From: Helicobacter didelphidarum
GTDB lineage: Bacteria > Campylobacterota > Campylobacteria > Campylobacterales > Helicobacteraceae
Length of the DNA: 64,000 nt
NCBI RefSeq assembly: GCF_003364195.1
Contig: NZ_NXLQ01000003.1
Location: forward strand, 1 to 64,000
Reading direction: 5' to 3'
Shown here piece after piece: positions 19,193 through 20,310 of the stretch. The stretch's first letter is position 1, and each line of letters opens with the position of its first letter. Under the pieces are notes generated by a model. That model made no database searches. It had not been told where the DNA came from and worked only from the letters and a program-made list of their open reading frames with translations. A program made the position numbers and the translations under genes.

Positions 19193-19975
19193 TTAATAAG
19201 TAGCATCAAGCCCTATACCAAATTCAAACATAAGCATAAAGCTTTTATCCATGATATGATATGTAATACCACCTTTTTCTAATGGATCTGCTTGATAATA
19301 GCTACCTCGTATCTTTGCATAAAAATCTGGCTTTTTACGCCTCTTCTCATAAACACCATCATAATCTCTACGCATAATCACACCAAGTCCCATATCAATG
19401 CGGTAGCCATTAAAAAAAACTAAATCATTAAAATAAAAGCTTGCAAAACGTGTAAATATCGTATGGGCATATCCTATTTGATATTCTAAATCTATATCCT
19501 CTCGTAGAGCATATCTACCAAGTATGCTACCACCTAAATATACTGATATATGTCGCAGTCTCTGTTCTCTATTACCATAAAAATCTTGCCGTTCTGCAGG
19601 CATATCAAGTGAGATAAACAAAGGATTTTTCATTGTATTCGCATTGACACCAATATGGAGTGTAGCATTATAAAAGAAATGCAGTCTGTTAGATATTACA
19701 TCTGCATTACCAATAAAATTCCCTTGTATAGTAGAATTACCCAAACCACCATATAAATCCACACCTGCATATAGCCTATTGCTCCAATAACCTCCTGCAT
19801 AACCCGTTAAAATACCACCAATATTGCTATAATTAGGTGTATTTATACTATTAAAATTACTATAATACATCCCAACACCAAAGCGTAAATCATCGCAACG
19901 ACTTTCATAGCAACGATAAGCATAAGTGATATTGGTCAAAATAAATAATAAAAAAAAATAGATTCTCAATAGCAT
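19193..19975 (-). CDS. Outer-membrane beta-barrel protein, Helicobacter type
   Basis: 260 residues with a signal peptide (about residues 1-19, ending TYAYR) and alternating aromatic/polar strands through the whole protein (GVGMYYSNFNSI, LYAGVDLYGGLG, HISVYLGGSILGRYAL, FMLMFEFGIGL). The C terminus is aromatic (DATY). Two cysteines lie close together at the mature N terminus (CYESRC). A T9 tract in the signal-peptide codons (19950-19958 as A9 on the plus strand) could allow on/off switching by slippage. It starts 14 nt after the small bacteriocin-leader-like gene and is probably co-transcribed with it. The specific function is unknown. Confidence 0.72.
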   Translation of the reverse strand: MLLRIYFFLLFILTNITYAYRCYESRCDDLRFGVGMYYSNFNSINTPNYSNIGGILTGYAGGYWSNRLYAGVDLYGGLGNSTIQGNFIGNADVISNRLHFFYNATLHIGVNANTMKNPLFISLDMPAERQDFYGNREQRLRHISVYLGGSILGRYALREDIDLEYQIGYAHTIFTRFASFYFNDLVFFNGYRIDMGLGVIMRRDYDGVYEKRRKKPDFYAKIRGSYYQADPLEKGGITYHIMDKSFMLMFEFGIGLDATY

Positions 19976-19989
19976 AAGAATTTACCTCA

Positions 19990-20310
19990 TTAAAAATCCA
20001 CAGACCATTCAACCTTACCTTCATCGCATGCACCACCTGTGCCACACTCTATACCCCAACTAACTAAACCAAGTGCTACTCCTATTGCTAAGCCAATAAG
20101 AAAAGATATGAAAAACTTACCTTTAGTCTCTTCCATTTCTCCTTGAGAAAGCATAGCAACATTCACATTCTCTTTACCAAATAAGAAATCTGCATCAGAT
20201 TGTTGAAATTGTGTGTGTGAAGTTTGCACTTGTGCTACTTGAGCATTTGCTGATAATGAACTCATACCAAGTGTTAAAGCTAACACAAAAATACTAAAAA
20301 GCCTTTTCAT
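19990..20310 (-). CDS. Small exported protein with bacteriocin-leader-like motif
   Basis: 106 residues. It has a Sec-type signal peptide (MKRLFSIFVLALTLGMSSLSANA), then a polar linker, then LSQGEMEETKG at about residues 55-65, which resembles the LSxxEMxxTxG leader of class II bacteriocin and related precursors. A hydrophobic, Gly-rich segment follows (FFISFLIGLAIGVALGLVSW), then a tail with two cysteines (ECGTGGAC). A second cleavage after the KG would release a peptide of about 41 residues. No peptidase-ABC exporter is adjacent. The RBS AAGGAG precedes the ATG. It could equally be a small membrane protein; the maturation idea is inference. Confidence 0.6.
   Translation of the reverse strand: MKRLFSIFVLALTLGMSSLSANAQVAQVQTSHTQFQQSDADFLFGKENVNVAMLSQGEMEETKGKFFISFLIGLAIGVALGLVSWGIECGTGGACDEGKVEWSVDF

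Follow-up and report, generated by a model that had tools for sequence, protein, structure and literature searches.

In Helicobacter didelphidarum, a 106-residue precursor encoded in the window (the whole stretch of 64,000 nt that was analysed) belongs to a large family of leader peptides in Campylobacterota, whose members share a signal, a pro-region and a leader, differ in their cores, and are followed by a gene whose kind is predicted by the type of core. The sequences themselves show the motifs, the family, the genes of the machinery, their co-occurrence and the covariation of core and partner. The reading favoured here, with somewhat better than even confidence, is that the precursors yield bacteriocin-like peptides exported by Sec, matured by a C39 peptidase and secreted in the FapF manner, each paired with a cognate gene for protection or a partner role. 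The peptide set of this gut Helicobacter looks like an undescribed kind of weapon-and-protection set, and the literature searched, a scope that excluded preprints and most subscription papers, gave no earlier account of the family in Helicobacter.

Anatomy and spread of the precursor family

An earlier, sequence-only reading of this locus had described a 106-residue protein with a Sec signal, the motif LSQGEMEETKG, a Gly-rich hydrophobic segment and two Cys, and the open reading frame, its ribosome-binding site and the sequence bear out that description (Table 1). The two processing signals it had proposed are likewise backed by the sequence, as predicted sites. The Sec-type signal reads MKRLFSIFVLALTLGMSSLSANA, and Asp39, Leu43 and Phe44 of the pro-region were invariant in an alignment of 16 precursors, in which invariant positions were confined to signal, pro-region and leader and the cores could not be aligned.

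Table 1. Features of the precursor and barrel genes, with positions in the window
Feature	Position	Strand	Basis
Precursor gene, 106 aa	19990..20310	(-)	ATG open reading frame, AAGGAG ribosome-binding site; homologs in the same genome, in the genus and in the phylum
Sec signal peptide, residues 1-23, AXA = Ala21-Asn22-Ala23	20242..20310	(-)	sequence
Conserved pro-region, residues 24-53 (QQSDADFLF..)	20152..20241	(-)	16-sequence alignment
LSQGEMEETKG leader (residues 54-64), putative site of C39 recognition	20119..20151	(-)	family motif counts
Variable core, residues 65-106, two-Cys class (Cys89, Cys95)	19993..20118	(-)	DNA identity drop among own paralogs
Probable cognate partner: outer-membrane barrel, 260 aa, ATG, N-terminal Cys22/Cys27	19193..19975	(-)	open reading frame, model, covariation with core
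Nine-T run (A on the + strand) in signal-peptide codons of the barrel gene	19950..19958	(-)	sequence

The leader LSQGEMEETKG keeps the spacing of a double-glycine leader but, unlike it, ends in a single Gly, which across the family is mostly followed by Glu. The putative C39 cut is predicted after Gly64 or Lys65, giving a mature peptide of 42 or 41 residues, respectively. Canonical leader spacing, such as that of pediocin, fits if the cut lies one residue past the conserved Gly. In 54 of 73 cores that residue is a Glu, so the cut may lie either directly after the Gly or one residue further on; we know of no characterised C39 substrate in which position -1 is mostly Glu and not Gly.

Beyond the motif lies the Gly-rich hydrophobic stretch, with residues 66-87 strongly hydrophobic, and the Cys pair of the core may form a disulfide. 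The window core carries a net charge near -3 and a single long hydrophobic stretch and could, judging from this composition, stay in a membrane. In a very improbable alternative, the hydrophobic core would halt in the inner membrane after Sec translocation, the leader would be a mere pro-region and the locus an ordinary envelope operon. This alternative draws on residues 66-87 and on the processing of the precursor being a prediction, whereas conservation in the family is highest in the leader motif, carriers of this motif co-occur with a C39 peptidase (below), and many sister cores (KIKKWF and GWW types), judged by eye, are amphipathic and not membrane-spanning.

The precursor had no Pfam, NCBIfam or PADLOC family above cut-off, NCBIfam bacteriocin models included. 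Plasmid carriage was considered and dropped, a tblastn search of PLSDB having returned no match, and promoter and terminator scans gave chance-level signals only.

Three further precursor paralogs were found in the same genome, on contigs C156, C174 and C175. A single-sequence query recovered relatives in 7 of 14 genus genomes, and a profile search gave matches in 47 of 397 phylum genomes, about 10 of which (all genus g22) were left uncounted as weak matches with internal stop codons. These g22 matches (E 1e-5 to 1e-3) are precursor-like and may be relics or chance. In all, about 90 relatives were collected across Campylobacterota. A search for such leaders beside barrel genes had been suggested by the sequence-only reading, with non-conservation named as the outcome that would count against it; the motif was kept, next to barrel genes, in many Helicobacter and other Campylobacterota. 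The precursor-barrel observation goes beyond chance because of this distribution and because the leader is conserved where the core is not. Among 78 members, themselves selected with a loose form of the motif, L-x3-E-M-x2-T-x-G was matched at L in 75, E in 75, M in 70, T in 71 and G in 77, and a simple rule detected a signal-like N-terminus in 68 of 73 members.

Conservation ended with the leader. Mean within-genome identity was 60% for leaders and 28% for cores, and the leader was more alike than the core in 77 of 80 within-genome paralog pairs. The four paralogs of H. didelphidarum were 77-90% identical in DNA over codons 1-64 versus 30-44% over the core, with an abrupt drop after the leader, and in one other genome (G178) the leaders of two copies were identical and their cores shared only 21% identity. 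Up to seven different precursors occurred per genome, as scattered cassettes. Cores were mostly 20-50 residues long, were without Asn/Gln-rich or repeated segments, ranged in charge from -7 to +14, and in many cases ended in F, W or L. Mimicry of a beta-signal by two-Cys cores was considered and dropped, C-terminal aromatics being common in the other core classes too.

Degenerate or stop-containing precursor copies stood next to intact ones at four loci (L055, L056, L062, L063), a sign of turnover. Contig boundaries (starts or ends) fell within the repeated leader or just ahead of it, in H. didelphidarum (G000 contigs C174 and C175; L049, L050) and also at L055 and L058, and the leader repeats therefore probably broke the assembly; further cassettes may be missing.

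Maturation and export genes

A whole-genome PF03412 search yielded a single C39 protein, free-standing, of about 230 aa and with an N-terminal signal, and no C39-ABC transporter. The C39-peptidase ABC transporter that had been expected elsewhere in the genome was thus not found, and a canonical C39-ABC exporter was dropped as an explanation, the only C39 enzyme of the genome being of the stand-alone, periplasmic type and lying beside a FapF-like barrel. The residues expected in a C39 active site (Gln45, Cys51, His147, Asp163) were invariant in 8 homologs. The closest NCBIfam model was FapD (9.6e-29; 100 bits, the cut-off being 330), followed by FilB (NF050078; 1.5e-23, below cut-off).

On contig C174 the gene order is precursor, barrel, 297-aa outer-membrane protein and C39. 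In the loci read, the gene directly upstream of C39 was that of the 297-aa protein, whose H. saguini homolog was modelled as a 12-stranded barrel (pLDDT 86). A Foldseek search with the exporter model placed FapF at ranks 1-17 without exception (best E 3e-13, TM up to 0.79); the sequence search gave no FapF match, and only the structure search found it. The modelled exporter has 293 aa, with its first strand at residue 33, and the roughly 32 residues before that strand do not hold the periplasmic coiled-coil domain of FapF.

Across 397 genomes, 31 carried both C39 and precursor, 6 only C39, 5 only precursor and 355 neither, with C39 counted at E < 1e-40, a threshold set after the list had been viewed; since the genomes are related, these counts matter more than p-values. 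The exporter accompanied C39 in 36 of 37 genomes. The sole C39 gene adjoins the FapF-like barrel on another contig, and therefore the window barrel is probably not the exporter; as far as its role can be judged, it is probably a cognate partner. Of the compact export or immunity unit that had been proposed for this locus, the cognate partner gene stands, while the exporter is probably the FapF-like barrel elsewhere.

Outside the phylum, Sec-signal proteins with EDMDALSGG- or AEMDAVTGQ-like leaders were seen beside FapD-like C39 genes of Alpha-, Beta- and Deltaproteobacteria, at 12 of 58 loci (L215, L216, L225, L227, L228, L230, L240, L246, L248, L253, L255 and L260) against a control-strand count of 5 of 58. 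By their leaders, these proteins are possible C39 substrates outside Campylobacterota.

Core type and downstream partner

The barrel gene follows the precursor after 14 nt, exactly as had been stated, and the barrel call is backed by a 10-stranded AlphaFold model (mean pLDDT 79) whose fold matches the OpcA and OmpT barrels in Foldseek. Neither this barrel nor the small membrane partner described below scored above cut-off in Pfam, NCBIfam or PADLOC. The nine-T run in the barrel gene is, from its sequence, a possible phase-variation tract at which slippage could switch the barrel on and off.

Core type predicts the neighbouring gene. Twelve cores carried 'NAP' (e.g. LNAPGPNDxIYxG), and all 11 with a close downstream gene were followed by a protein of 78-122 aa for which several membrane spans are predicted; a further NAP-type pairing with a small membrane protein was found at L206. 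Such a partner followed only 1 of 52 other cores, namely those with a close downstream partner and with exporter genes excluded (Fisher 2e-11, a value that overstates significance since cores and genomes are phylogenetically related and core classes were defined after viewing the data). The remaining non-NAP partners were open reading frames of at least 150 aa, called barrels from length and position. Furthermore, core similarity correlated with barrel similarity (r = 0.51), above all 5000 of 5000 within-genome core permutations (mean 0.19, sd 0.05), and the leader-barrel correlation was weaker (r = 0.32). The dedicated outer-membrane partner of the sequence-only reading is retained as a cognate barrel, on the strength of core covariation, but does not extend to the NAP class, which has an inner-membrane protein instead.

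Same-family barrels also occurred apart from the peptides. Two complete genus genomes (G002 and G005) hold such barrels without peptide or C39, which fits either orphaned protection genes or a barrel acting independently; the barrel may therefore have its own function. Barrels without a detectable precursor were further seen at L268:3217-3992, L269, L270 and L271-L275, the first of these lying in the H. didelphidarum genome and broken by a stop.

Covariation of this kind would also be shown by binding partners, and the C39-cut core could be a non-toxic subunit that assembles on the cell surface with its own barrel, as an adhesin, porin plug or mini-amyloid, like Fap subunits with FapF. The FapD and FapF likeness of peptidase and exporter, the adhesin OpcA among the closest folds of the window barrel and the F/W/L ends of many cores, as in barrel-insertion signals, are consistent with such an arrangement. 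It is nevertheless considered unlikely, given short cores free of Asn/Gln-rich or repeated segments, an inner-membrane protein as the partner of one core class, and many divergent paralogs behind one leader, pseudogenes and peptide-less barrels, which have the look of conflict genes.

Proposed pathway and comparison with known systems

Under the favoured reading of bacteriocin-like peptides, the precursor would cross the inner membrane by Sec and signal peptidase would remove residues 1-23. The stand-alone periplasmic C39 peptidase (contig C174) would read L-x3-EM-x2-T-x-G and free a core of 41-42 residues, which would be exported by the FapF-like barrel of 12 strands whose gene immediately precedes that of C39, and which would hit the membranes of competing, probably related, bacteria. 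The gene just downstream would shield the producer from its own core or encode a protein dedicated to that core as its partner; NAP cores have a small inner-membrane protein in this place, and other cores, that of the window among them, have an outer-membrane barrel. Peptide and partner genes would form exchangeable cassettes behind a common leader, with one maturation and export unit serving in trans. Cleavage, export route, toxicity and protection are what we infer here, and an antibacterial role is proposed from cassette diversity and from the correlational pairing of cores with partners.

If true, this would amount to a bacteriocin-like arsenal in Helicobacter, and core-specific outer-membrane barrels would suggest an unusual, outer-membrane form of self-protection. 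More tentatively, and with less than even confidence, a toxin-protection family is proposed in which the protector from an outer-membrane-acting peptide is a co-diversifying outer-membrane beta-barrel, combined with tandem Sec and C39 signals and a FapF-type exit pore.

Class II microcins and bacteriocins resemble the family in leader spacing (L-x3-E-M/L-x2-x-x-G), in a short hydrophobic or Gly-rich core and in an adjacent protection-type gene (here the small multi-TM protein of the NAP class). The present family differs from them in having no C39-ABC transporter, in crossing the inner membrane by Sec, as predicted, and in its barrel partners.

In the Pseudomonas Fap system, export through FapF depends on FapD, a periplasmic protein (PMC5557850). 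With that system the family shares Sec-exported substrates, a periplasmic C39 peptidase and a 12-stranded export barrel; the Sec-signalled stand-alone C39 protein with its catalytic residues and the adjoining FapF-like barrel are machinery of the Fap type. It departs from Fap in having no amyloid repeat substrates of FapB/FapC type and no FapF coiled coil, and in having cognate partners. The natural substrate of FapD-like periplasmic C39 peptidases has been reported as unclear (PMC5557850), and the present family, which is large and has an evident, conserved candidate site, makes this substrate question directly testable. The Acinetobacter Fil system, source of the second-best match FilB, carries the annotation of a putative pilus system.

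Among described systems the Neisseria nap island comes closest; the gonococcal report describes NapABC leader peptides, the C39 peptidase NapP, the FapF homolog NapF and the immunity-like NapI (PMC11798529). The same gene content was found here, namely peptides with GG-type leaders, a stand-alone C39 peptidase, a FapF-type channel and, next to the peptides, an immunity-like gene with a putative role in immunity. According to the gonococcal report, Naps promote stationary-phase autolysis and competitors of other species are not inhibited (PMC11798529), which lends some weight to a model in which the present peptides target the producer's own population for self-lysis or signalling; with Nap cores cationic against -7 to +14 here, and with up to seven precursors per genome and differing partners hard to reconcile with one autolysis signal, such a model appears quite improbable. 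From the nap island as described there, with no Sec signal mentioned for Naps in the text read (PMC11798529), the Helicobacter family is set apart by its evident Sec signal and conserved pro-region, a single Gly at the end of the motif, cassettes that are scattered and number as many as seven in a genome, and an outer-membrane barrel as the usual partner.
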